Of a DNA stretch of 64,000 bases, positions 17,901 through 40,700 are shown in pieces (the first letter of the stretch is position 1; each line of letters opens with the position of its first letter). Origin of the DNA: Cheilinus undulatus (Eukaryota; Chordata; Actinopteri; Labriformes; Labridae). The notes under the pieces are model-generated. The model was not told the DNA's origin. It searched no databases and saw nothing but the letters and a program-made list of their open reading frames with translations. The translations under genes and the position numbers were made by a program. The stretch covers positions 3,236,921-3,300,920 of the forward strand of contig NC_054885.1 in NCBI RefSeq assembly GCF_018320785.1, given 5' to 3'.

Positions 17901-18151
17901 TACGATATTACTACCTAATTTTTTAGTGGCAGAAATGGGCTTCAAGTGTAAAACATCATGAAATAAATATGTAAAATGAGAGTGACAAAATTAAAAAAAA
18001 GCAGAATAAGAATAAAAATCGCTAAATGAAGTGCAGGATTTAGCCCAAAGTTTGTACAGCCAGATGTTTTAAGTCTTTTTTAAATAAGTAGAAATTATGT
18101 TTACTAAGCATGTAAATGAACTGAAGAGTCTGTGATGCTTAGACTTAAATA
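14991..18151. other. Gene-free stretch with repeats
   Basis: No exon recognised. It holds a repeat starting near 15580 (GGCCACACACTACAAGATTT), a perfect 12-bp-arm palindrome at 15770-15795, and a degenerate GTA/ACT trinucleotide tract at about 16340-16600. A slightly GC-richer segment lies near 16900-17110, with no frame I can assign. Confidence 0.4.
16340..16600. repeat. Degenerate GTA/TAC trinucleotide tract
   Basis: Rich in GTAGTAGTA on the plus strand in the left part and ACTACTACT in the right part, so the two halves are partly inverted. The serine/threonine-rich open frame on the minus strand (16313-16645) is produced by this tract and is not a gene. Confidence 0.65.
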
Positions 18152-18314
18152 ACAGTGTTCATGCTTTGTTAATTCAGATTAAAGCTTTGATAAAAAACAC
18201 ACTGACACCAGAAATGGATGCTTCAAAGCTTTAATGCAGAGATTGATATTGTTGGTGTGTAGCACAGACTAAGAGCTGTCAGAGAAAAGCCGGTTTTCAG
18301 GAGAGGAGTGGCGT

Positions 18315-21300
18315 CTAGAACTCAGCAGAAGCTTCCTGGCCTTGGTTGATGTAGCTGTTGATGTAGTCCACGAAGCTGGAGACACGGGTGTAGACCCCAG
18401 GATGACCAGGAAGACCACAACTGCCATAGCTCATGATGCCCACCTGGACAAAGTCACCGCCACTACGGCACACCAGTGGGCCGCCGTAATCCCCCTTTAA
18501 TGGCAGGAAACAAACCGTTAATCACATTCAGGTTGGCTGTTTTATTCTAAAAGGGTTCAAACTTTAATCTGATGGTCAAACTCACCTTGCAGGCGTCCTT
18601 TCCTCCAGCCAGGTCTCCTGCACACAGCTGCTCATCGGTCAGGTTAGGATAGGTCTCCTTACAGACGTTCTGAGGGATGATGGGAATCCTCAGCTGCTGA
18701 AGGGTTTCTGGAGAAGGGAGGGGAACTGCAGAGACACAGGGGTCATAATGATTCTGGGCTTATACTTTCTCACAGCCCTGTATGTCCTTGTACATCATGT
18801 AAACCCTCTTGGTGTGACCCTTACCCTCATCTCCGACGTTCCCCCATCCTGTGATCCAACACTCGGACGAAGAGTCGAAGGAGTCGGTGGCTCTCGGCAG
18901 CCGGATCGGTTTAACGAGCTGAGAGAAAGTGATCGTCTTCTTCAGCTTCACCAGGGAGAGGTCGTTGATGTAGCCGTTGCCCACGGCTCGATATCCAGGA
19001 TGAGGCATGTCAAACTCGATGCCCATGTAACGAGCCGACGCCTTCTGCAGGTCATGGGAGCCGACCCAGGCCATGGAGCGGGTCACGTCAGGCCTAGGGT
19101 CTCTAGAAGCAAACAAATACCAGTGGATCAGGACTCAGAGTGTTCAGTATTGTGTTGATCTGTGTAACCTTGATGAACAGAGTAATGAAGAAACCTCGCT
19201 GTCCTTTTCAGACTGAATAAAGCTTTTAGAAACAGAAGCTTATGTGTGAAGTTATTTTATTATAACGGTGCTTTTAGCTGCAGAAATCCTGGACACAGAT
19301 ACTGACTTGTCCCAGCAGTTGGCAGCAGTGAGCACCCACTGACTGTTGAGGATGGTTCCACCGCAGCGCCACTTTTTGGTGCGGCTACTGAAGACATTGA
19401 GGTAAACCATCCACGGCCACCCGCCTTTTGGAGCGTTCTTCCCCCCGATGATGGAGCTCCCCACCTCAGCACCAAACAGACCTGAACAAGAACAAAACAA
19501 ACCAGATCAGAATGATGATAAACCTCTGACAGGTCCCTGCAAAACACAAATCTTTGTAGTCTGTGTTCTAATTTCTGGTCAGAAACAGGGGTGTAGCGGG
19601 GATTTTTGGCCCCCAGAAAGAATATTACACGGGGCCGTCCTTAACCAGCTAGCCAGTCAACAAATGTTGCATCAAATTTTTAATCTCTTTATTCTATTTT
19701 ATATTTGTTTTGTTGTTTTCTCTGCACAGTTTTTCTTTTTTTTCTATCCCCCCCCCCCCCAATTTGTTGTCTCTTTTTAATGTTTATTATATGTAAATAA
19801 TTTTGTAAATCAGCACCACAACTTGCTACCCATTTATCTGTCTGTGTAGCAAATATTTGTTTGTATGCACTTATTGGTGAATAAAAGATATATATATATA
19901 TATATACTGCATTTCATGTAAAGTTATGAAATTTTAAATAAAATTTAAAAACATATATACATATATGAGAAAATATATATATTAAAAAAATACATATAAA
20001 ATATATATCTATTTACATATTTGCCTTGCATAAAATTACAAAATTTAAAATAAATTAAAACACACACACACATATATTATATATATATCTAATATATATA
20101 AAATATTAGTATAACAAAAAGAATATATATTGAAAATACATATATAAAAATATTTATTTATAATTTGCATTGCATAAAATTATAAAATCTTAAATTAAAA
20201 CACACACACATATATATTAGTATAAAATATATATATATATTAAAAATACACATTATATATTATATAAAATATATATTTATTTATATATTTGCCTTGCATA
20301 CAATTTTAAATAAATGAAGACACACACACATATAAGAAAATATATATTTATTAAAAATATATATTTATATTTTTGCCTTGCATAAAATTATAGAATTTTA
20401 GATAAATTAAACCACACACACACACACACACACCCATATATATATATATTCTTTTTTTAATTTTAATTTCCCTTTCTATAAGCAATAATTTTATCATGCT
20501 AAAATTAAATTAACTTGCATTACTTTGCAGTGCTGGACATTCGGAGATTTCTAAGGGAGGGGCAGGGCCCCCAGTATCGTATTTCACTCTGTATTACTCC
20601 ATATTACAGTTCTTATACTGTTTTGTGAGTGTTTTTTGAACAAATATGACCATCCTGTAATCAAACTAGCATTGAAAGGGTTAAAATCCTGAACATTTTC
20701 AATAATTGATTGTTTTGATCACAACTGAAGTTGTTCAAAAGATATGACCAAAAAAAAGCAGAAAAAAATGAATGTATACTATTTTTATTGCTGTTTTTGT
20801 CCCTAATGACTCGAAAGGGAAGAAAATTTTATATCTGTTTCTACACAAAAACTAAAAATGCAACAAAGTCAATATTTTGGCTGATCATTGACATGTCCAC
20901 GCTGGATTTAGAAATAACGTTCCAGCCATCCAAAGATAACACATGTTAAAAAACAACATTGACTTTAAGTAATCAAACTGGCATTTAAAGGGTTAAAATC
21001 CTCAAAAGGATTGAATGGAGGTTTAAACTAATCTGTTAAGTTTTTACAGCAGGTTTTGGAAGGGGACATTTTTGTCCTTAATGGCTTTAAAGGGTAGTAA
21101 ATTAAAGTGATGCCTGAGAGTTAATATAAGCTGTTTTCACCCAAAAATCAACATTTATGTCTTATTTTATATCCAAAAATCAAAGCTCAGGCCTGAATTT
21201 TCTTTGGTAATTAATCTGATGATGCAGGATGCAAAACTTCTTAGTCTTCTTGAGCTCACGTCAAAAACATTTCTCGCTGCTTATTGCCAATTCTTCATGT

Positions 21301-22382
21301 CAGCTATTTTTCTATTTTTCTATCATAGAATAAGATGTTTGGATGTTTGTCTTTCAGGCTAGTTTTCCTTCTAATAAGTGAAAAAGATGTTTTTGACTAG
21401 AAAGTAGACAAGCACACGGCAGTGATTACAACACAAAACTGACAGAATTGTGAACTTTTCCTTTAAATTTGGAGAGAAACTCACAGGCAGCCTGTTCTCA
21501 GAAACCAACAGAGGCAGACATTAGTTTATAAAATGCTGAAGCCAAAATCCTTCAGTTTAAAACAGACTAACATTTTTGATAGTTCATCCTTGTGCTCTCC
21601 TCAAATTTACAACCCTCGGGACACCTTCGAGGCAAAAATGTACACGTACAGAAAAGTTGCCATTAAATCAGCATACATCAATATTTTTTTCTACTTTTTT
21701 TTTCATAAATTTCTTCAACAACTTCAGACCGGCTCCAATCTACCAAATATTAAATAATTTTAAAGATTTTAACCCTTTAAATGCCGGTTTGATTATTTAA
21801 AATATTTTATTTTTTCACTAAAAAACAGAAAAAGTACATTATTTTTCATATAATTAACAGTAGAAAGATGGGACTTTGGTGCTGATGAGAGTCTCTGATG
21901 GGTCAAAGATTAACAACAAAACTGATTTGATTGCACTTGTATTTTTTTTGTAGTGCCAGCTTTCACATTCGGGCACCCTCTTGACACCTTTGAGGCAAAA
22001 ATGTACACGTACAAAAAAAACTGCCATTTTTTGTACGTGTTCATTTTTGCCTCGAGGGTGTCCCAAAGGTACAAAATTCACTGAGAGAGTATGAATGACA
22101 TTTAAGAGTAAAACATGTTGGATTTCACAAATTTAACTAGAAAGCAAAGTTCCTGTAAAAATTCGTGCCACAGGCTGTAAAACTGACAAAATGATCACAA
22201 ATTTAAAAAAAAAAAGTTGAGAAAAATGGCCAAAAATGCCCGAGGAGGGCACAAGGGTTAAAGTCAGTGAACTACCTTTAATAAATCAAATCCAGATACA
22301 TAATTAAAGCATAATGCTGACGTGTCTCACCTCCACAGTAGTGGATCAGCACCAGCACGGTCAGGAGTTTGCAGAAAGCCAT
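18315..22382 (-). CDS. Inactive trypsin-fold serine protease homolog, copy A
   Basis: Five coding exons on the minus strand: 22331-22382, 19307-19481, 18825-19102, 18586-18725, 18315-18494 (825 nt, 274 residues plus stop, frame intact). Residues 1-17 are a signal peptide (MAFCKLLTVLVLIHYCG). The mature chain would start at IIGG (28-31). Chymotrypsin-fold landmarks are present: CGG at 57-59, NDLSLVKL with the Asp102 equivalent at 123, CWITGWGN, a trypsin-type pocket Asp at 212, and PGVYTRV. However, the His57 position is Asn72 (TAANC, codon AAC) and the Ser195 position is Tyr218 (GDYGGP, codon TAC), so it cannot work as a serine protease. The layout resembles the tryptase/prostasin group of S1A; I give no symbol. 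Probable role (inferred): secreted binding protein or decoy. The sequon NLT at 196 is absent from copy B. The exon 2 donor is GTCAGT, chosen because it alone keeps phase. Confidence 0.9.
19735..20470. repeat. AT/CA microsatellite and ~120-bp minisatellite in intron 1 of copy A
   Basis: A poly-C run (about 19748-19760) is followed by (TA)n and then 4-5 imperfect units of roughly 90-140 bp. Each unit has TTTGCCTTGCATAAAATTA (about 20022, 20163, 20288, 20372), then an A-rich part, (CA)n, and (TA)n. It is missing from the matching intron of copy B, so it was inserted or expanded after duplication, or lost from B. Confidence 0.7.
21581..22261 (-). mobile_element. piggyBac-like MITE cluster in intron 1 of copy A
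   Basis: Read on the minus strand, the right end is TTAACCCTTGTGCCCTCCTC (TTAA at 22258-22261) and the left side carries CCTTGTGCTCTCCTC at 21582. This type of end with TTAA suggests piggyBac. A near-perfect hairpin lies inside (21983-22018 pairing with 22027-22062, 33 of 36), and one arm sequence recurs at about 21617-21650. Copy B lacks this block at the same intron position (near 27450), so it appears to be an insertion specific to A. Confidence 0.5.
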
Positions 22383-22424
22383 GATGGTGAAGAGTGAAGC
22401 TCTGCAGAATGCACCGAGACCCTG

Positions 22425-22455
22425 CAGCTTTTTATCAGCCGCTCTCTTATCAGCA
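22425..22455 (-). promoter_or_regulatory. TATA-like and GATA motifs upstream of copy A
   Basis: On the minus strand, CTGATAAGAGAG is followed by CTGATAAAAAGCTGCAGG, ending about 45 bp before the ATG. The second motif is a TATA-like box and the first fits the GATA-factor site WGATAR. Both are kept in copy B (27645-27672), where the spacer between them differs slightly. Inferred from position only. Confidence 0.45.
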
Positions 22456-22875
22456 ACATCAGCTCAGGTTTTTTTCTCAGAATGTGGAAAATTACTCGCA
22501 TGCTGTGATGTAGAGATCTGGTACTCTGCAGCAGCATTTCAACTTTGAAACATTTTATATTAATGCACAACTAAAGCGCAGCGAGTGCCGTTTTATTGTT
22601 TATTATCTCAAAGCACAAGTTATGAGGAGAAATATGAGAAAGTTTAATGAGCTCTCTTACCTAATATTAGTAATGTTTCATATCATCTATTTAAAATAAA
22701 TAATCTATAACACACACTTGTATTTACTTCTTTCAAACAAACCAGTCATTTGACCCTGTTTACCCATGAAAACAGATAAATTTAGTTTGTTTTCATATTT
22801 TGATTTATTCATCTTGTTTTCTCAGGATTACAACACTGTCTGTTTCTCAAGATCTTGATAAATAACCATGTGATC

Positions 22876-24197
22876 ATTTGGCTTTTTCAATTGGTTATTT
22901 GGACTGATATCATAGTTTGACCTTTTAGGGCCATCGTTTTTAATTTTAAGCCACATTATTGCCTAAAAACATTGTGATTTTCTTTTTTATATATTTGCCC
23001 TTTAAAAGCATTATTTTATCATCTAATTTCATGTTTTGACCTTTTGAACAAATAAAATTGACTTTTTATCTCGTATTTGACATTTGAGGTTAACAGTTTT
23101 AATTTTAAGTCATATTTTGGCTTAAAAACATGGTTGTGACTTTCTTTTTTTATATATTTGCCTTTTCAAAACATTATTTTAACATCTAATTTTGTGCTTT
23201 GACCTAAAGCAAAAATGAAGTCTGTATGATGAAGTGAGCTGAAGTTTGAGCCTTAGAAGTTGAAACAGTTTTCGAGGATCTAAAGAGTTTAGTTGTATTG
23301 CCGTAGATGGGGAACTGAATGGGTTTCGATCACGCTTTGAAGCTTACTGTGCCAAATCCGTTGATCATTTTGCCCTTAAATCTTTTTTTGTGAGCAAGAG
23401 GAGACGTTTGGCTATGTTTTGCTGTTAATATTATAAATGTGGACCAAATATTTTATTCAGCAGAACAGTTTCTTCGGGAAGTTCTGCCTCTATTTCACAC
23501 AGCTTCTGTGCTCTAAGTGTGACATCATCACTCTAAGCCTCTCCATTTACCCCCATTGTAAACGTCTGAGAGAGCTCAAATATTCATGAAGTTTGATCAG
23601 TGATTATAAGAAATCTGTAAAAGATATCAATAATGTGAATCAGTCCTAGATAGCTGAAGAGTTTGTCTACGTTTTAAAGCAAAAATGAAGTTTGTATGTT
23701 GAAGTGAGCTGAAGTTATAAGCCTTAAAAGTTGGAACCATTTTAGAGGATCTAAAGTGTTGGCCCATCTGAAATAATGTTAATTTAGTTTTAGAAAAAGC
23801 AAAATGGTTTAAAAAAGTATAAATGATATAAAAAATATTTAAAATAGCTGAAAAGAGCATCGGAAGCTGAAGAGTTTGATAGTAGAATAGTGAAAATATT
23901 CCAAAAAATGCCAAAGTTATGAGGAGTTAAAAAAAAGTGCAGTTTTTAAGAAATGCCCTATTCAATTGAATGGCAAAAAATGTTGCAGAAAAAGTGTAAT
24001 ATTTAAAAATTATAAACGTTTTAAATGAGAAAAGTCATAGCCATCATGTCCTAAAAGAGCTGGATAGAATGATATGAGAATGATGAGTATAGCTCAAAGA
24101 GTGAAAGAGCAGATGGGGTCCAAAAAACGTACAGAAAAAACAAAATGGCTGACGCAAATATCAATAGTGTGGATGCTTACTCAGCATCCCCACTAAT
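22876..24197. repeat. Spacer between the tandem copies, repeat-derived
   Basis: 22890-23215 resembles, inverted, the array at 2440-3010. About 23211-23290 and 23681-23760 are near-duplicates of each other (AAAGCAAAAATGAAGT...GTGAGCTGAAG). The segment ends in a hairpin, TAGTGTGGATGCT (24165-24177) with AGCATCCCCACTA (24183-24195), directly before the start of unit B. It looks like a MITE at the duplication junction. No gene. Confidence 0.55.
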
Positions 24198-24361
24198 TAC
24201 AGTGTTCATACTTTGTTAATTCAGATTAAAGCTTTGATAAAAAACACACTGACACCAGAAATGGATGCTTCAAAGCTTTAATGCAGAGATTGATATTGTT
24301 GGTGTGTAGCACTGACTAAGAGCTGTCAGGGATAAGCCGGTTTTCAGGAGAGGAGCAACGT

Positions 24362-27300
24362 CTAGAACTCAGCAGAAGCTTCCTGGCCTTGGTTGATGTA
24401 GCTGTTGATGTAGTCCACGAAGCTGGAGACACGGGTGTAGACCCCAGGACGACCAGGGAGACCACAACTGCCATAGCTCATGATGCCCACCTGGACAAAG
24501 TCACCGCCACTACGGCACACCAGTGGGCCGCCGTAATCCCCCTTCAACGGCAGGAAACAAACTGTTAATCACATTCAGGTTGGCTGTTTTATTCTGAAAG
24601 GGTTCAAACTTTACTCTGACGGTCAAACTCACCTTGCAGGCGTCCTTTCCTCCAGCCAGGTCTCCTGCACACAGCTGCTCATCGGTCAGGTGAGGATAGG
24701 TCCTCTTACAGACGTTCTGAGGGATGATGGGAATCCTCAGCTGCTGAAGGGTTTCTGGAGAAGGGAGGGGAACTGCAGAGACACAGGGGTCATAATGATT
24801 CTGGGCTTATACTTTCTCACAGCCCTGTATGTCCTTGTACATCATGCAAACCCTCTTGGTGTGACCCTTACCCTCGTCTCCGACGTTCCCCCATCCTGTG
24901 ATCCAACACTCGGACGAAGAGTCGAAGGAGTCGGTGGCTCTCGGCAGCCGGATCGGTTTAACGAGCTGAGAGAAAGTGATCGTCTTCTTCAGCTTCACCA
25001 GGGAGAGGTCGTTGATGTAGCCGTCGCCCACGGCTCGATATCCAGGATGAGGCATGTGATTATAGATGCCCATGTAACGAGCCGACGCCTTCTGCAGGTC
25101 GTGGGAGCCGACCCAGGCCATGGAGCGGGTCACGTCAGGCCTAGGGTATCTAGAAGCAAACAAATACCAGTGGATCAGGACTCAGAGAGTTCAGTATTGT
25201 GTTGATCTGTGTAACCTTGATTAAATGAGTAATGAAGAAACCTCGCTGTCCTTTTTAGACTGAATAAAGCTTTTAGAAACAGAAGCTTATGTGTGAAGTT
25301 ATTTTATTATAACGGTGCTTTTTAGCTGCAGAAATCCTGGACACAGATACTGACTTGTCCCAGCAGTTGGCAGCAGTGAGCACCCACTGACTGTTGAGGA
25401 TGGTTCCACCGCAGCGCCACTTTTTGGTGCGGTTACCGTAGACGTTGACGTAAACCATCCACGGCCACCCGCCCTTTGGAGCGTTCTCCCCCCCGATGAT
25501 GGAGCTCCCCACCTCAGCACCAAACAGACCTGAACAAGAACAAAACAAACCAGATCAGAATGATGATAAACCTCTGACAGGTCCCTGCAAAACACAAATC
25601 TTTTTATGTTTGTGTTCTAATTTCTGGTCAGAAATATCCCGTTGCTATGGTGGCCAGAAAGAGCAACTGTAAAAGTATTTAATAGCTGCAAAAACTCATT
25701 CCACCAGATGTCAGAAAACAAATGCAACAGTATTTAAAGAATGTAAATAAATTTAACATCATTAAAATATTTTATGATACCTAAAATACATAAATGATAA
25801 ATTATTAAATCTTTTTGCATTCAACTAAAAAATGAAATAAAATCATAACTTGCAAAAATAATTAACTCTTGCAAAAAAATTTGATTTTTTTTTGCAGTAA
25901 GTGAACATTTTTTTCTTAATTTTTTTCCTCTTTTTGGAAATGTGTATGCATTTTATTTTTTATTTTTTTATTGCAATCATTAAACATTTTTACAGTGGAC
26001 CTTTAGGGTCATCGTATATATAACAACTTACCCCAATGACCCATACATGTACATATAAGGATATTTTTACATTTTGGCTTCTTTAAAACATAAAAAACAC
26101 AACATAATTGTTCCAAATTTACATAAAGTTTTATGAATTTTCTTGGGATGTTTGAAGAAATTTGCTTTGAATTTTTCTTGGATTTTATTGAACATTTTTG
26201 GGGTTATGTTTATATATTTTGGAGTCTTCTGAAATTTGTAGGTCTTTTCAGGGGTATGCAGGGAATTTATTTGAGCTATTTCAGGAAATATGATTGGAAA
26301 TAATGGTGGGGAATTTTCTTTGAAATTTTCCTGAATTTTTAGGGATCTTTTTGGGATTTTCTTTTTTTTTTTTTTTGACTTTTTTTGACTTTTGATTTTT
26401 GGGAGGTATTTTTCCTTTGGACAGTTTCAATAAATTTGATTGGAATTGGGGGGGCGGGGGGGTATTTGTAATTTCTTGAGAATTTTATTAAAAATTCTGG
26501 GTGAAATTTACTTAGAAATTTTGGTGAATTTTGTTAAAAACGGAACTACATTTTTAAAGAATATTTGGAGAACATTTAATGCAATCTTTAGGCCTTTCAG
26601 GAAAGTTTACTGAAATATTTGGGGATTATTTTAGGAGGTATCTTTTTAAAGAATTCATGAATTTTCACAGAATTCTTTGGTAATGTCTCAGACATTTTAG
26701 GGAAATCAATTTATTTTTTATATTTTGAGAATCTCTAATAATTCTAAAGGGAATTTCCAAGACCTGGACTTTTGGTGGAAATTTAGTTTATAATTGACCT
26801 CACCGCAATAGTTGCATGTGAAAAGATGCTTAGAAAAAGAACAATGATCTATCTAAAGAGCAATGGGGTGATTTTGGCCGTCATATTTTGGAAGTAAGAA
26901 CCTAATTTGTCAAGAAATGGACGGACTGTATAAGTGCATTAGTGAAATGGTACAGATCCTCTACAGACCTCAACAAGTTCTCCCATCATCAGAAATCTGA
27001 CCCTGTACATCCCTTATTGGCAGGCGCCATTCCACCTGACTGAGACTCATAATGTAAAAAATATGCACCTTTTTTTTTTGTAAAAACTACTTCCTGTTCA
27101 AATACGAGGTTTATGTTATAAACTTAGTAGAGTACGCTGTTAAAACTAATGTGCCAATGCAGGAAGCAAAAACTCATGTCAGATTATTTTTCTATTTTTC
27201 TATCATTGAATAAGATGTTTAGATGTTTGTCTTTCAGGCTAATTTCCCTTCTAATAAGTGAATAAGATGTTTTTGACTAGAAAGTAGACAAGCACACGGC

Positions 27301-27601
27301 AGTGATTACAACACAAAACTGACAGAATTGTGAACTTTTCCTTTAAATTTGGAGAGAAACTCACAGGCAGCCTGTTCTCAGAAACTAACAGAGATAGACA
27401 TTAGTTTATAAAATATTAAAGCCAAAATCCTTCAATTTAAACACTAAACCTGGTAGTTTAAAAAAGATTCCTCTAGTTGGAGTCAGTAAACTACCTTTAA
27501 TAAATCAAATCCAGATACATAATTAAAGCATAATGCTGACGTGTCTCACCTCCACAGTAGTGGATCAGCACCAGTGAGGTCAGGAGTTTGCAGAAAGCCA
27601 T
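24362..27601 (-). CDS. Inactive trypsin-fold serine protease homolog, copy B
   Basis: Five coding exons: 27550-27601, 25355-25529, 24872-25149, 24633-24772, 24362-24541 (825 nt, 274 residues, frame intact). It has the same two catalytic losses as copy A, Asn72 for His57 and Tyr218 for Ser195, while the Asp102 equivalent and pocket Asp212 remain. The losses therefore most likely predate the duplication. By hand count it differs from copy A at about 15 residues. These include the signal peptide (V9S), a surface loop (LNVFSS to VNVYGN, residues 45-50) and three adjacent residues (EFD to YNH, 105-107). The loop change creates an N-glycosylation sequon NRT at Asn50, while the A sequon at 196 has become HLT. 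Expression and function are unknown; a secreted non-catalytic role is inferred. Confidence 0.9.
26100..26790 (+). repeat. Degenerate AATTTT-rich array in intron 1 of copy B
   Basis: Irregular units like TTTTCCTGAATTTTTAGGGA and GAATTTTCTTTGAAA repeat with much drift. A reverse-oriented relative occurs at about 46550-46960 in CLN3 intron 14. A poly-T run (about 26361) and a poly-G run (about 26448) are included. Origin unknown. Confidence 0.45.
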
Positions 27602-27644
27602 GATGGTGAAGAGTGAAGCTCTGCAGAATGCACCAAGACCCTGC

Positions 27645-27672
27645 AGCTTTTTATCAGCTGTTCTCTTATCAG
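27645..27672 (-). promoter_or_regulatory. TATA-like and GATA motifs upstream of copy B
   Basis: Same arrangement as upstream of copy A: CTGATAAGAG, then CTGATAAAAAGCTGCAGG on the minus strand, about 45 bp before the ATG at 27601. Its conservation may reflect only the recent duplication. Confidence 0.4.
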
Positions 27673-28418
27673 CAACATCAGCTCAGGTTTTTTTTCTCAG
27701 AATGTGGAAAATGACTCAAATCCTGTGATGTAGAGAGCTGGTACTCTGCAGCAGTATTTCAACTTTGAAACATTTCATATTTAAGCACAACTAAAGCCCA
27801 GCGAGTGCCATTTTATTGTTTATTATCTCAAAGCACAAGTTATGAGGAGAAATATGAGAAAGTTTAATGAGCTCTCTTACTTAATATTAGTAATGTTTCA
27901 TATCATCTACTTAAAATAAATAATTTATAACACACGCTTGTATTTATTACTCATGATCCTGTTTACACATTAAAACAGATAAATTTAGATTGTTTCCATG
28001 ATATTTTGATTTGTTCATCTTGTTTTCTCAGGATTAAAACACTGCTTTTCCCTGATGACAAGTTTATTTTGGTCTAGTCTCAAGATCTGAAGAAATTACC
28101 ATGTGATAACAGGAAAACCAGTGCTGTTTACCCAAGTTATTGTGGTAAGTAGGTCAGAATAGTGAGAAAAAGACTAATTAGTTTGTTATCAAGTGAAACT
28201 GGTGTCATATAAATGGTATAGTCTTGTCATTTTAGGGCTTTTGTAATAATTTATAAATTTAAATCTATTCAAATTCCCTTCTTAAATCATAAATAAGTTC
28301 TGATATTTGTTTCTTAATCGTCAAACTGGCTTCCAAAGCTACAGATTTGTCAGCAAGAGGTTATTTAATATATATTTTTTCGTTCAAACAATAAATATAC
28401 TGATTTTACAACAAACTC

Positions 28419-28713: not shown

Positions 28714-31700
28714 ATGGAACAGAGTGGCAGCGTCCCCGCACATCTTGTTCACCGCCCTGACACCAACGGTGGGTCTGACATCTGTCAGCATCATAAACAA
28801 GATCTTTAAAAACATTATGTTAATGGTTTCATGTTTTATTTTTAGGCCGTTCGACTCTATGGAGGAACTGGTCCGGGTTTTGGTGAGTGTCTACAACCAA
28901 TGTCTGGTGTACTGGTTAAATTAGTTACCGTGTAAAATGTGAACTTTAATTTTAAGTTATTGATGAATACATATTTATAAGCTTGTTAGGATATGACAAC
29001 TAAAATATAAACAAAAAGGCATTTACGAAGACTCCTAAATCTTTTAGCAGTTGTTCTAACTACGGCAAGCACAGCTTAATTCGGCTGAAGTCACCAGTTA
29101 GCACGGTCACTACTTAAACCATTACACTGGTAGAGAACAGAGCGGCTTTTCTAAAGAGAAACTTATTCTAAAGGTGTTATGAAAGGTGACATAACAGATG
29201 TATTACCAACGTTAACAGCCTTTATTTGGAAAAAATAAAACTATAAAGTTTTTTAATTTTCCGGTTGTAGTCGAAACTGCTTCAGCCCGCTGCTTCCTAA
29301 TGTTCACACTGAGTAGACTAGACCAGGTTTTCAAACTTTGTTCGCCCAAGGCACACCATATTTAAATTGATATAAAATAGACTTTTTAAATAATGTTACA
29401 GTCAAGGTGATCCATAAAGGGGAGAGCCTTCTGGGCCCAGCCAACTGGGGGATCATGGAGGTGGAAAAATTGGGCAATAAGTGGCAAAACAAAATCAGAA
29501 ATGGGCGAAAATTGGTTAAAAAAAAAAAAGTGGCCAAACAACAGGTTAAAATTGGAAAAACTTGTTAAAATAGAAGGAAAAATGGGTTACAAGTGGTCTA
29601 AAAGGGTTAAATGTTGTAAAAAAGTGATAAAATGTGTTTAAAGTGATTTAAAAAAGGGCAAAATTGGGCAGAAAAGTGGTCAAACAAGGGCAGTAGTGGG
29701 TGAAAATTTCCAAAAAGGTGAAATAAATGGGTTGAAAGTGTCAAAAAGGTGGCAGAATAGATCACAAGTGGCAGAAAATTGGCAAAAAAGGGTTGAAATT
29801 GAAATAAGGTGGTAAAAGGGGGTTAAAGGTTATTAAGAAGAAGTAAAAAAGTGGCCAAACAGTAGAAAAATTGGCTGAAAAGTGACAAAAGGGTTGCAAA
29901 GATGGTTTAAATGTGGCAAAACATTCCCCAAAAAGTGGCAAAAATATGTCAAAAGTGGTAAAAAGAAGTGGCAAAATGGATTAAGCTGTCAAAAGAACCA
30001 ATCCAATCAACCCAAAATTAGCTTGCCATGCTTTTTCAGCTCTAAATTATGTAACTGTTAGCCAGGATGCTAGCACCAATGCTACTGATCCAACACACAT
30101 ACGCTGATATCATCAATAAATCATAATTAGGGAGGGCCCATTCTCTGTTTTTTTCCAGCCAGATCTGTGGGCAGGCCTGGCTACAGTAGGCTACTTGCCC
30201 TAAAGTCACAGTAGTAACGTGCGGTTGTACAGGTTCCCAAGGCACACCTAGACTTGCCTCAAGGCACACTAGTGTGCCCTGACACACCATTTGAGAACCA
30301 CTGGGCTAGACTATACACTTTGACATAAATGTAAAAAAGGAACAGAAACCTTTGGTTTGCTGTTTATTCAGTTTAAGAAATGAAACTGCCTCCTTTTGGC
30401 TGTGTCTGTTGTTAATAAGGTAGAAGAAGAGTTGTTTCTGCTGCCATACTACATCTAGATTTGGACTGTTGTGAAATATTGGCTCATGGGAAAAGATCAT
30501 GTTTCATTATCAGTTCTAGATAGTAAGGCCGTCTAAATTTTCCACCCTCAGAGACTCATGGAACTGCAAAAAGAAACAAAGTGTTTTGTTTCAGGTCCTG
30601 GTTTATATTTTAAAATTTCACCTGTGGTGGACTCAGGATGTTTGAGGAGCAGGGGTGAAAATAAGAAGGGTACCTTCAGTGTGTAGTGGGGCACCAACAC
30701 ACAGAAGTTGTACTCATAGTACTCATGTACTTATAGTTGAACATTTACAGTAAAATACTTATAAATCCCCCCCATGTCTAAGAAGAATTTGAGCCCCCTC
30801 AGGGCCGACACGTAAAAAAAATAGTGATATTTTGTGACCAAAATTAACATAAATTTTAATTATTTTTTGTGCAAATCCAACAATGTAGCCCTCAGGACAG
30901 ACAGAGCCCTGTGCCCCCCTGAGATCTCTGGTGCCCCCCCTAAGGGGGTCCAGGACCCCAGGTTGGGAAGCAAGGTACTACACCACTGTAATGAAACAGA
31001 TGAGGAATTTGTAACTATTTAACTATTTATGTCACAAAAATAAATAAGAGAGGACGTCAGTGAATGTTGATTCAATACAGAAAAGTTGATGGCACTGATC
31101 ATCAACTGGAGGCCCGGGGGCCATATCAGGCCCCCCAAAGCTTCCTGTCCTGCCCTTGAAACATCATTAAATCCAAAAAAAGGAGGAAAAGAAGATGTGG
31201 TTTTAAGAGTATCCTTTGGCTTTGAATGCCTGCAGCTTTTAAATCCATCCCACAAACAATTAACACCGAATTAGTTTTAGGATGACTTCACAATGTGATC
31301 TGTTTTTACTGAAATCAGTAGTAGATATTTAAAAAAAGGGTTGAGGTTGGCAGAAGTGCTGCAAAATGACCAGATAAAGTGGTGAAAAGGGGTTAGAGAG
31401 TAGCAAAATGGATTGTGGAGTGGCATAAAGGGACCAAAATTGGCAGAAAAGTGGTGAAAAGGGGTTAAAATCTTTCAAAAATTGGGTTGAAATGGCAATA
31501 AAAGGGGATAAAAGTGTCAAAAATTGGTTAAAAATGACAAAAAATAGTGCAAAAAAAGTTATGGATAGGGATAGGCAGTGGCCAAAAATAGAAGAAAAGT
31601 GGCAAAAATGGATTTAAAAAAAAGTAGCACAGAGGGGGTAAAACATGCAGTGGTTCAAAATGGGTTAAAAATTGCAAAAATTGGGTTAAAGAGGCAAAAC

Positions 31701-34700
31701 GTATCAAAAATGGGTTAAAAGTGACAAAAATTGGTTTTTAAGTTGCAAGAATTGTTGAAAAAGAATGTAATGAAAAGGGGTTAAAAAGCGGCCAAAATAG
31801 AAAAAAAGTGGTACATATGGGATAAAACATGCGTGAAAAGTGGTTCTAAAGGGGTTAATCCTTGCAAAAATTGGGTTTAAGGGGCAAAAAGTAACAAAAA
31901 TTGGTAACAAATGACAGAAAATAGTGCAAAAAAGTCATGAAAAGGGGCTTAAATGGGTTAAAGAATTACAAAATTGGGTTAAAGAGGCAAAGAGGGGCAT
32001 AAAATATCAAAAAGGAGGTAAAAGTGTCAAAAATGGGTTAATACTGGTGCTTCATGACAATTGTGGAGGGCCCGTTCTCTGGGATTTTCAGGGGCCCAGC
32101 CAACCCTGTTGTCAGGTCTGTCTCCTTGTGGCCTGCTGCATTATAGATAATAGGTATAGATCTCACTGGTAATGACTAAAATGTCCTGAGTTTTGAAAGA
32201 AAGTACAAATACTACTGCAATAATATTTCAATCAGACCAAAATATTGATTTAATTTTTGTTTATGTGAAAGTCGGGCCCCCAGAGTTTCTGTCGAGACTA
32301 AATCTGGCCCTTGTGCAGATGTACTTGATGACCCCTGGTTTATGGCACTCAACAACATTTGTTCTCTCTAGTATTGGGGTTCCCAAACTTTTGGGCCTAG
32401 GACCCCCAAATGAAAAGGTCAGAGACCAGGGACCCCACCGTACCTTAAGATGGGGAAGCACTGTTGCACACGGCCGTGCACATTTAAGAAAAGTTGTGTG
32501 CAGACTTACATTTTAAGGATTTTTCTAAACTATTACTTTGATGTCAGCATAAATCTCACAGCAGTTAGCACTGGTGCCTCACATCAAGACGGTTCCTGGT
32601 TTGGTTCCTGGTCAGGGCCTTTCTGTGCTGAGTTTGCATGTTCTTCCTTTAAAATTTAGTAAATAAGTGATATGATCACCCAACACATGGTTCTGGATTC
32701 TTCTATTTTTGTTTTGAAAAGTATATTGATAGAGTTAGATTTATACCTTTATATTACTTTATAATATTCACTTTAAACCATTCAGTTTGTCCAGCAAAGT
32801 TTACATTTATGTCATTATTGTGTGTTTGCATATTGTAAGCTTTTTAATCCTGGGATTATTTATGTGATCTGTCTCTTAAATAAATAAATAAATGTTAAAA
32901 TTGTATTAAAATGTAATTATCTGTGATCATGACATCCCTGTTGAAAACCGTGCATGTATAAGAAGTTATCAGAGTAACCTTTCATCCAGCAGCTCGGTCA
33001 TCAGTTTTTGATGCATCTGTTTACTCTGCCTTATCTGTCTCTCTTCCGTTTATCTCCTCAGGCTGCTCGGATTGTGCAACAACTTTGCGTATGTGGTAAT
33101 GCTGAGCGCTGCCCATGACATCCTGAAAAAACAAGAGTCAGAGAACAACACAGCATCAGTAAGAGGACTGAGTCTGTCTGTTTGGTAGCTTTTATTCAGA
33201 GCTAAGGTTCTGTACTTTAACAGTCTTTAATACTGCATTTTTTAAATCAATTAATAGTCAGAAAAAAGCAAAGCTGTAAGAAAAAAAAAGATTTTATGTC
33301 GTGATCTTACCTGCAGCTGATGGGAGGAAAAGAGAAAGTGATCCATTCATCCCGTAGAGATGCAAAAGTTAAAATATTTTATAGCAAAAGAGAGCAAAAA
33401 AAAAGTCTAAAATGCCTGAAAAAAACATAAACCTTTTGGTATCAAAGTTTTGTGCAATTCAAACACTGTGCAGAAGGTTGCCTGCAATTTTTGTTAGCTG
33501 AAATATAGAAAGAACCCAGTATTTTATTTTCTATTTTTATTTAACTAGAACAAAACCTCGTTGATATTAAATGTTTTTCTGTTCAAAATTGTCCTGGTCA
33601 ACAGTTAACAGAATTTTAAGAGCAGATTATTAAGTCGGTGCGTAAGACTTCAGTTTTTTCTATGTCGTCACAGGGTTCCAGCAGATCCTTAAAAGTCTTC
33701 AGAAGTCTTATTTTCAATAGTTAGTGGTCTTAAATTGTAGATGGCACCTTGACTTCGGTGCGTCTATATCCAGTCTCTGTTTTCTACCTACATGCGATTA
33801 TTTTAATCATCCTTTTTTATATGTTTGTGATAAATTTCACTGTACTCTATATTGATAGAAATGAGGCATTAAATGTGCAGGAAATCATTAAATTTGGGTA
33901 TTAATGACCAAAATATCTCTGTTTTCCATCAACTGACATTTCATCCACAGGGCATTGAACCAGATAATCCAGTCCAGTGTACCAAGGAATCGCATGCCTT
34001 TCATTTTTGACTGTCTGCCACATAAAGTGTGGTATTAAATTTTATCAGCTCAGGTCTTTAAAAAGGTCTAAAAAGTCTTGAATTTCACCCTTAAAGCGTG
34101 TAGGAACTCTGTATCAGAACACGATTGATACTGTTAGATTTTTTCCTGTATTATTTCTAGGTGTAAAATCCTGGTATCATGACAAATCTATAAAATTAAC
34201 TTTTTCCTTTTTTTTCCGCTTTCCTTTCCAGGTTTCAGGGACACTGTCCGTGGATTTCCAGGGTGGAAACAGCAGCAACAGCAGTCGCTATGACTGCAAT
34301 CCTGTCTCCACTGCGGTAAGTAAAGTCACACCCACCGACCTCTGAATGTCTTTAATCAGGTTATACAGAGGCAAGGAATAACTCATTTTCTAGGTTTTCA
34401 TGAAATAAAGCACAAAAATATTTCAGATAGAGCATCAGAGGTTCCTTTCAGAACACATTTCATAAAAGAGAAATGAATTAGGGTAAATTGCAAAGAGCTG
34501 TGTTCATGTATGACCTCTGACAGAGGCAAAAAGTATTTAAAGTAAAGTTGAACTGGTGATTATGAGGTTTAAGGGACTTTTTTGCCAACCAAAAATATTT
34601 TGTGGAATATTTTTTAGTTTTTCTCTAAAGCTCAATGGAGCAGTTTTGCTGCACAAGTGCCCAGTTCACTTAAAGTGCTCTCATTTTTCACATCTTTGCC

Positions 34701-37700: not shown

Positions 37701-40700
37701 GAGGAAGAGTAATCTAAACAGAAGCAGGTTTAGAGACAAACTGAGAAGTCTGATTCCTGTAAAGCTGAAAGAACATCATCACAGCTTTTATCAGGAGTGT
37801 TTCATCCCTGACAGCTGAACAGGTCAAACATGACATCTGACAAAATGAGGGTCACTTTGTACCAGACCTGTGGAGTCCTGAGAAGACTTTCTGCTCAAGT
37901 GTCCTCTTCAAATGTCCCTTATGAGGCCTGTTAGCACTGGTTTAGAGTCTTTATAGTCAAGGCTCATCTTAAGTCTAAATTCAATAAATCTCTCCTGAGC
38001 GTGTGTGCTTTCATCCATTGTTGATTTCTTTGTCAGGGACCAAAAGTAGGAAGTTAGCTGAAAAAATATAGTTCTCATGAAAGTTTTTCTGGTACCTCCA
38101 CATCCCTTAAGGCAGTGGTTCCCAAAGCGGGCGGTGGGCCCCCTCCATGAGGGTGCGGGGTTATATAACAGGGGAGGAAGTCACCTCAGATTCAACAACT
38201 TTATTGGAGTTTAAGTCCAAGACAGTCAGGGTTTTGGATTGGAGGGGAAAAGGAGGAGTAGTGAGGCACAAGAGTCTTTGCCACACTTTCTCCTTTTGCA
38301 ACATCCTACCTGTGTGAGGATGTAGCAAAAGTCTGTAGCCTCTACATTAGAAAGTCAAACAACAACTGGACATTAAAAATGAACAGAGATTGACAGTCTC
38401 ACTGCTGCACCCAGAACTCAAAAAGATCTCTAGCACCAAATAAGCCCCAACAAAAGTTAGGGAACCTCTGCCTTGAGGAACTGAGTATTGTTTGTTAGCT
38501 CATATTATTTAAATATTTTGTTTTAAAGTTCGTGTCTCTGCCCGTGTTCAGACTAATCCGTCTCTCTCTCTCTATTTTCAGGAGTGATTTTTGCCAGTGT
38601 CAGCTCTGGACTCGGAGAACTGTCCTTCCTCTCTCTCACAGTCTTCTTCAGCAGGTAAACTGTGATCTTTACACATTTCATTGTCTACAGTGAAGTCATT
38701 TCATGTTTTTTTTTTTAGATACTTCTTCATATTTTGACAATTATTTCCATGTTTTATCTGTTCTTTCTTGGCTGCACTCCTGTAAGATGTGTCTTCTTAC
38801 TATAACTAGCTTGTATATTGGTATATTCATGTTTTTCTACTGATGAAGTTTTTCTAAGTGTTGGCAGAAAGTTAACTAGCCATGGGCTGTGGTCAGACCC
38901 CATCAGAAAGTTCTGGATTATGTGAATGCCCCCTTTGAAATAGACACAGGTTTTCTGAGCTGTACTGTCTGCTCAGTGGGTGAACCTTCCAACTACACTT
39001 TGTTCCACATTGTTATGTAAATTGGATTTTAGTGTCAAACATTCAGTTTTTGTTTTCCAGTTAAACTCATGGATGATGTTGTGTCTCAGGGCTCTTTGGA
39101 TCACTAAAATCAATCTAACACACCTGTGATCATTAGTTTGCCAGGTGAGCCCAATTAAAGGAAAACTACTTAAGAAGGATGTTCCACATTATTAAGCAGG
39201 CCACAGGTTTCAGCAATATGGGACAGGAAAAGGATCTTTGCTGCTGAAAAGCCTCAAATAGTGCAATGTCTTGGACAAGGAATGAAAACATGAGATATTT
39301 CAGGAAAACTTCAGCGTGATCATCGTACTATGAAGAAATTTGTGGCTGATTCAGAGCACAGACGGGTCGGTGCAGATAAAGACATAATGAGGAAGGTTTC
39401 TGCCAGACAAATTCATGGGATTAAGAGAGCAGCTGCTAAAATGCCATTACAAAGCAGCAAACAGATATTTGAAGCTGCTGGTCCCACCAACCTCAAGGTG
39501 TAGGATCCTCCAGAGGCTTGCAGTCGTGTATAAACCTACTATTCAGCCCCCCCTAACCAATGCTCACAAGCAGAAACGGTTGCAGTGGGCCCAGAAATAC
39601 AAGAAGACTCATTTTCAAACAGTCTTGTTTACTGATGAGTGCCGTGCAACCCTGGATGGTCCAGATGGAGGAGTGGTGGATGGTTGGTGGTTGGCCACCA
39701 TGTCCCAACAAGGCTACAGGGAGGGGGCGGAGCCATGTTTTGGGCCAGAGTCATGGGGAGAGAGCTGGTAGGCTCCTTTAAAATTACCTCAGCAAAGTAT
39801 ATAGAGTTTCTGACTGACCACTTTCTTCCATGGTATAAAAAGAAGAACTGTGCCTTCCATAGCAAAATGATCGCGTGCATGACAATGCACCATCTCATGC
39901 TGCAAAGAATCTCTCTGTGTCATTGGCTGCTATGGGCATTAAAGGAGAGAAACTCATGGTGTGGCCCCCATCCTCCCCTGACCTTTAACCCTGTTGAGAA
40001 CCTTTGGAGCATCCTCAAGCTAAAGATCTATGAGGGTGGGAGGCAGTTCACATCAAAACAGCAGCTCTGGGAGGATATTCTGACATCCTGCAGAGAAATT
40101 CAAGCAGAAACTCTCCAAAAACTCACAAGTTCAATGGATGCAAGAATAGTGAAGGTGATATCAAAGAAGGGCTCCTATGTTAGCATGGAACTTGGTCTGT
40201 TAAGATGTTTTTGATTGAAATAGCTTTGATTTCAGTAAATATGACCTTCAACAAATGACCATTTTCAGTTCTTTACAACCTATAAAATGTTTTAAAACTC
40301 TGTTTTGCATAATAATGTGGAACAGTGCATTTTGAGTTTTTTATTTTTGAAAAAAGTAGATAGTTATCATTGGGAGGTTTGCTCAAACAAAGTTAAATTA
40401 TGCTCTAAACATTGATGACTTGAAAATTACACTGACTGTCATTTACATAATAATTTGGAATGCGGTGTAGTGCTTTCATTCTGCAGTGAAACAGAAGCGT
40501 TGTGCACTGACAGCTGTGAGACAAACAGTTTTTCCTCCATGTTGACACAAGTGGAATCTCAACATTTCAAACATAGATCTTGATTTAATTTTGTTGCTGA
40601 CGCTCACTTAGTGAGACGCACTGTAATTCAAATACTGACAATCATAACTCCTACTTCAAATATATTTTTTGCAACCTTTATGTTTTCTCAGGAACGTTCT

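Follow-up and report, generated by a model that had tools for sequence, protein, structure and literature searches.

We analyzed a 64,000-nucleotide stretch of the Cheilinus undulatus genome (NCBI RefSeq contig NC_054885.1, positions 3,236,921 to 3,300,920; G000:C21:3236921-3300920 in our labeling of the 1.17-Gb genome), which we refer to as a whole as the window. Two tandem neighbors on its minus strand, together spanning 18315-27601, are predicted to be S1-fold serine pseudoprotease genes, in which triad residues are lost, the frame is open and fold positions are kept. Copy A runs from 22382 to 18315 and copy B from 27601 to 24362. Each consists of five exons (52, 175, 278, 140 and 180 nt) that join into an open frame of 274 residues plus stop, and all eight introns of the two copies have GT-AG borders. 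The original prediction for this locus had placed the pair exactly: 27601 is the first base of the ATG in copy B, and 18315 the last base of the stop codon in copy A. Pfam PF00089 (Trypsin) matches both proteins over its full length (residues 28-260, profile positions 1-220 of 220), with E-values of 4.9e-58 for copy A and 5.8e-59 for copy B. The only other Pfam match in the pair, DUF1986, lies inside the PF00089 span and scores 23.4 bits in copy A (under the cut-off) and 28.4 bits in copy B (over it). There is no kringle: the proteins are 274 residues long, PF00089 starts at residue 28, and no Pfam domain is found outside it. The two gene models contain the following features:

22428..22435, minus strand: TATA-like element of copy A, ATAAAAAG, 53 nt 5' of the ATG (consensus match only)
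22331..22382, minus strand: copy A exon 1, with ATG (start context ACCATCATGG) and predicted signal peptide
19307..19481, minus strand: copy A exon 2, with GSS/IIGG and TAANC; Asn codon AAC at 19320-19318 in the His57 position
18825..19102, minus strand: copy A exon 3, with the Asp102 equivalent within NDLSLVKL
18586..18725, minus strand: copy A exon 4, with sequon NLT and the pocket Asp189 (DACK) at the exon end
18315..18494, minus strand: copy A exon 5, with GDYGGP; Tyr codon TAC at 18488-18486 in the Ser195 position; stop TAG
18230..18235, minus strand: copy A poly(A) signal ATTAAA, 79 nt 3' of the stop (consensus match only)
27647..27654, minus strand: TATA-like element of copy B, ATAAAAAG, 53 nt 5' of the ATG (consensus match only)
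27550..27601, minus strand: copy B exon 1, with ATG and predicted signal peptide
25355..25529, minus strand: copy B exon 2, with GSS/IIGG and TAANC; Asn codon AAC at 25368-25366; sequon NRT
24872..25149, minus strand: copy B exon 3, with the Asp102 equivalent
24633..24772, minus strand: copy B exon 4, with the pocket Asp189 and without the NLT sequon of copy A
24362..24541, minus strand: copy B exon 5, with GDYGGP; Tyr codon TAC at 24535-24533; stop TAG
24277..24282, minus strand: copy B poly(A) signal ATTAAA, 79 nt 3' of the stop (consensus match only)

The ATG stands in a strong start context in both copies. Each protein has one N-glycosylation sequon, and the sites differ, with NLT at residue 196 in copy A and NRT at residue 50 in copy B.

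We compared the functional positions of the pair to those of catalytic S1 enzymes, using chymotrypsin numbering fitted through alignments to PDB matches. Both copies carry an Asn (AAC) in place of His57, reading TAANC where TAAHC is expected, and a Tyr (TAC) in place of Ser195, reading GDYGGP where GDSGGP is expected. The codons thus bear out the two replacements reported in the original prediction. It is also true, as was pointed out there, that each change lies one base off a catalytic codon, yet this is uninformative on timing. A third lesion had been overlooked: the residue directly before IIGG is a Ser in both copies instead of Arg/Lys, so that the pair lacks the usual zymogen-activation site. 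The statement that all other landmarks are intact consequently holds for the signal-peptide-like start, for Asp102, for the pocket Asp and for the splice sites, but not for the activation end. Kept in both copies are Asp102 (residue 123), Asp189 (residue 212), Gly193 (residue 216), Asp194 (residue 217) and eight mature-domain cysteines, as are the equivalents of Gly216 and Gly226. We next scored columns in which at least 90% of 26 paralogs from the same genome share one residue (5 of 31 paralog rows were dropped as near-duplicate or partial). The two copies keep 38 of these 43 near-invariant positions and show the same five departures: H57N, C122R, M180Q, S195Y and W237Y.

By established S1 chemistry, classical catalysis is impossible without a general base and a nucleophile, and because both His57 and Ser195 have been lost, no such catalysis is expected from the pair. 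We consider it extremely improbable that the proteins are still enzymes that employ Tyr195 or another residue in a non-classical mechanism. The pocket Asp and the oxyanion glycine would be in place for such a reaction, but general base, nucleophile and activation site have been lost together, and we know of no S1 precedent for such a mechanism.

Among the best 60 of 557 PDB matches, the whole protein aligns best with plasma kallikrein (7.6e-49), prostasin (2.8e-48) and tryptase alpha (6.7e-48), and its last 63 residues with tryptase alpha (2.1e-15). By these alignments the pair is related to tryptase, prostasin and plasma kallikrein. The rows of all three enzymes show TAAHC and GDSGGP opposite the Asn and Tyr of the pair, which in addition lacks the basic activation residue.

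We surveyed S1 loci in the same genome that resemble PF00089 or copy A, a selection rather than a whole-genome census; rows were deduplicated on identical stretches only, and some places have perhaps been counted twice. This aligned-row survey supersedes an overly strict census with motif regular expressions, which had returned no His exon and nine Ser exons, each reading Ser. Position 195 is occupied by Ser in 40 of 45 rows, by Ala in two, by Asp in one and by Tyr in two, the latter being copies A and B. At position 57, the 39 rows contain His 32 times, Asn four times, Asp once (L055, TSADC) and a gap twice (exon 3 of the pair). The four with Asn comprise copies A and B, L028 (TAANN, confirmed) and L008, a misaligned haptoglobin-like row reading TAGRN. 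Asp is present at position 102 in 31 of 31 rows and at the pocket position 189 in 38 of 46. The residue before Ile16 is Arg/Lys in 17 of 20 rows and Ser only in copies A and B; the remaining row, L048, has Glu by a one-residue misalignment, its true reading being ERIVGG.

The survey also picked up other pseudoproteases, which serve as controls. A haptoglobin-like gene (L008/L030, at C1:39.42 Mb) has TAGR and GDAGGA at the His and Ser motifs, and its top PDB match is haptoglobin (4f4o_C, 1.7e-25). L029 (G000:C24:751883-752452) is a factor VII/X-like domain with GDDGSP for GDSGGP, which adjoins two domains with an intact Ser (728 and 743 kb). L028 (G000:C8:32658167-32658385 and upstream), which combines TAANN with GDAGGP and whose last exon best matches coagulation factor IX (1.7e-25), is likely a further S1 pseudoprotease. 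Because these controls were recovered, triad loss per se is not rare among the surveyed loci. The combination of Asn57 with Tyr195 is rare, being found only in copies A and B among the loci surveyed, whereas L028 has Asn57 together with Ala195.

Of their 274 residues, copies A and B share all but 14. We found no third close copy in the genome: with 141 of 306 candidates scored, the best match after A and B is at 1.2e-20. The 26 paralogs are 34-49% identical to the pair over the aligned parts, with single exons reaching 56%. A close catalytic twin, by which the losses could be dated, was likewise not found among the candidates scored, the paralogs being at most 49% identical. In an IQ-TREE phylogeny (LG+G4; 197 columns; 26 rows from this genome, namely A, B and 24 paralogs, left of 33 once 7 near-duplicate or partial rows had been removed), the two copies pair with a support of 100 and cluster with nine rows from C20 and C21. 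This set of 11 is split from the rest with a support of 75, as read off the drawing. The duplicated units can be delimited as follows:

18148..22838: duplicated unit of copy A, homologous to 24195-28044 apart from the middle of intron 1 and a portion of that intron's 5' half
24195..28044: duplicated unit of copy B

These units are 91 to 97% alike across their aligned blocks and are separated by a spacer of ~1.4 kb. The centers of intron 1 (19586-21294 and 25635-27173) are AT-rich and have no mutual blastn match, while the flanking intron parts are ~95% alike. The arrangement looks like an ordinary tandem duplication that would have followed both catalytic losses, and gene conversion between the copies is possible as a source of the shared losses. 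The pair is known from the assembly sequence alone, and an assembly artefact could in principle have placed two haplotypes in tandem or introduced base errors at the catalytic codons. We regard this as very improbable: the catalytic codons are identical despite 24 coding differences and 59 differences in 1345 aligned non-coding positions, a non-coding divergence of ~4.4% is high for alleles, the units are set apart by the 1.4-kb spacer, and their intron 1 centers do not match.

We asked whether the copies have kept a non-catalytic function or are in the early decay of a young gene pair. The original prediction had concluded from the shared losses and the open frames that a function was kept before and after duplication. 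S1-fold pseudoproteases with both losses shared and with intact frames are indeed what we find, but as evidence for function these two observations are weak. The shared losses carry little weight because they need to have arisen only once, ahead of the duplication, and the open frames carry little because, in a neutral simulation, 24 substitutions leave no stop codon in 42% of cases.

Over 825 coding bases we count 24 differences between the copies, which fall in 14 codons with a changed amino acid and 5 silent ones. Several measures of this divergence, as well as the simulation just mentioned, speak against a maintained function. The NG86 method gives a nonsynonymous divergence (dN) of 0.029 and a synonymous divergence (dS) of 0.032 between A and B, and thus a dN/dS of ~0.91. 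The 14 changed codons are not significantly fewer than the 17.2 expected under neutrality (P = 0.108), and coding divergence is only weakly below that of non-coding sequence (24/825 versus 59/1345, p = 0.085). Other observations point toward constraint. The coding sequences are free of indels relative to each other, although the local non-coding rate, estimated from four gaps in alignable segments chosen by hand, would predict 2.45; under neutrality, the joint probability of no stop and no indel is 3.8%. The amino acid differences between the copies sit at columns that are variable in the family (mean entropy 2.45 versus 1.61, permutation p = 0.0046, scored for 9 of the 13 mature-domain changes, the other four lying in columns of too little coverage). 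Of 195 circular shifts, 7 (among them the real placement) reach an entropy this high. Nine of the 13 mature-domain changes map to the rim of the cleft (the 37, 60, 99 and 170 loops or position 224), but rim loops are also the expected site of unconstrained change in any S1 protein. The changes cluster (p = 0.028), perhaps because single events altered several bases at once.

Catalysis could also have been lost in a single gene that was duplicated while drifting, its frames being still open as little time has passed. This scenario of a decaying young pair is possible, though on the unlikely side. It is in line with the dN/dS of ~0.91, with the sizeable chance of open frames after 24 neutral substitutions and with the loss of three functional motifs. 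Against it speak the avoidance of conserved positions by the changes, the lack of indels and splice-site damage in either copy, and the retention of 38 of 43 near-invariant positions although none of 26 paralogs is more than 49% identical (single exons to 56%). The placement of changes at family-variable positions, together with the kept near-invariant positions, is better evidence for function than shared losses and open frames, and would favor a maintained protein.

We lean toward the view that copies A and B encode secreted, single-domain S1 pseudoproteases with a binding rather than a cutting role. In such a model, the catalytic losses would have come first and the duplication after. The protein would be secreted and would fold as a chymotrypsin-like double barrel, and a partner would dock on the cleft that once took up substrate and on its rim loops, much as receptors do on the β-chains of HGF and MSP, with Tyr195 in the middle of the docking face. 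The copies would since have diverged mainly on the rim (the 37, 60, 99 and 170 loops), and this divergence, together with the differing sequon sites, suggests slightly different partners or tuning. Asp194 and the Ile-Ile-Gly-Gly sequence are present, and Ile16 might be freed by signal peptidase or by a non-tryptic protease, for which we see no plausible alternative, a guess guided by the -3/-1 rule. Without an activating cleavage, the cleft may be zymogen-like and disordered, which would weaken docking there and thus counts against the model.

A narrower version of this binding-protein view is a decoy or regulator in a protease system, in which the Asp189 pocket would bind Arg/Lys substrates, inhibitors or cofactors in competition with an active trypsin-like enzyme. 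The equivalents of Asp189, Gly193, Gly216 and Gly226 are kept, the genome has many S1 paralogs with intact motifs, and protein Z and VaaSPH-1 provide precedents (PMC13194640). We nevertheless consider this role unlikely. With the basic activation residue missing the pocket may not form, the bulky Tyr195 would lie next to the S1 site, and no close active twin is present, the nearest active paralogs being at most 49% identical.

A more specific form of the docking model appears doubtful to us: a free-standing, cleavage-independent S1-fold ligand, which would have gained Tyr195 independently of HGF and MSP, lost the zymogen switch and, after that, given rise to two ligands that differ in rim loops and in the position of their only glycan. 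Here, signal peptidase might cut directly before Ile16 (with Gly and Ser at -3 and -1), setting the fold without an activator. If Asn57 and Tyr195 are fixed in orthologs, the pair would represent an independent route to the MSP-like Tyr195 state in a minimal, single-domain, expressible protein, and names such as 'trypsin-like' or 'tryptase-like' would misstate its chemistry. If they are not fixed, the pair would be an ordinary decaying duplicate.

The surroundings of the pair were scanned in roughly 20 of the 530 window frames of at least 45 codons. On the plus strand, an exon at 9115-9300 matches the MXRA7 helical domain (5.2e-16), a fragment at 39391-39768 resembles a Tc3-type transposase helix-turn-helix (under the Pfam cut-off), and an exon at 63497-63730 matches the catalytic subunit of PP2A-family phosphatases (PDB match, 3e-28). 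AT-rich, diverged repeats of ~87 nt (family D7) occupy 29582-31925. Some 190 kb past the window, two opposite-strand globin exon matches at G000:C21:3492230-3497429 likely mark a globin locus on the same chromosome arm. A beta-globin exon of the genome has its best matches in hemoglobin chains such as 1xq5, 6rp5, 4esa and 1hbh (1.2e-43 and weaker), which are fish hemoglobins, as expected for a bony fish.

We compared the pair to other S1 proteins that have lost catalysis. Our literature search, which was largely without subscription journals, found nothing on this lineage among the papers listed, and the string GDYGGP in no paper; teleost databases may well hold the lineage under 'tryptase-like' or similar names. 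S1 pseudoproteases are a known phenomenon, of which the pair is a further example. The original prediction had named haptoglobin and azurocidin as analogues. Haptoglobin is, like the pair, a secreted S1 pseudoprotease without the catalytic His and Ser. The pair is not haptoglobin, which is absent from the best 60 of 557 PDB matches and is represented by the separate haptoglobin-like gene at C1:39.42 Mb. Azurocidin is an inactive S1 homolog (PMC7914634), and scabies mite inactivated protease paralogs, protein Z and VaaSPH-1 are S1 pseudoproteases according to PMC13194640, which also lists cofactors, decoys and scaffolds as modes of action. These proteins and azurocidin belong to other lineages and have other functions than the pair, to which they are likened by description only. 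Haptoglobin and azurocidin are not the nearest analogues at the nucleophile, where Tyr is the state found in MSP (PMC3405059).

HGF and MSP invite the closest comparison, and in HGF the nucleophile position is likewise a Tyr (Tyr673). The pair shares Tyr195 with this family but is not a member of it, as it has neither kringles nor a basic activation site. The triad counterparts of MSP are Gln522, Gln568 and Tyr661 (PMC3405059). MSP and the pair thus have in common a non-catalytic S1 fold, a Tyr for Ser195 and a replaced His57, whereas MSP contains kringles and is activated by cleavage at Arg483-Val484 (same source). HGF again differs from the pair by four kringles and an activation cleavage (PMC12029800). 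In the β-chains of both, the pseudo-active-site region forms a core receptor-recognition interface, as stated in a recent paper on PRSS23 (PMC13194640). The pair departs from both in being a single domain without a basic activation residue, in having Asn rather than Gln at position 57, and in keeping Asp102.

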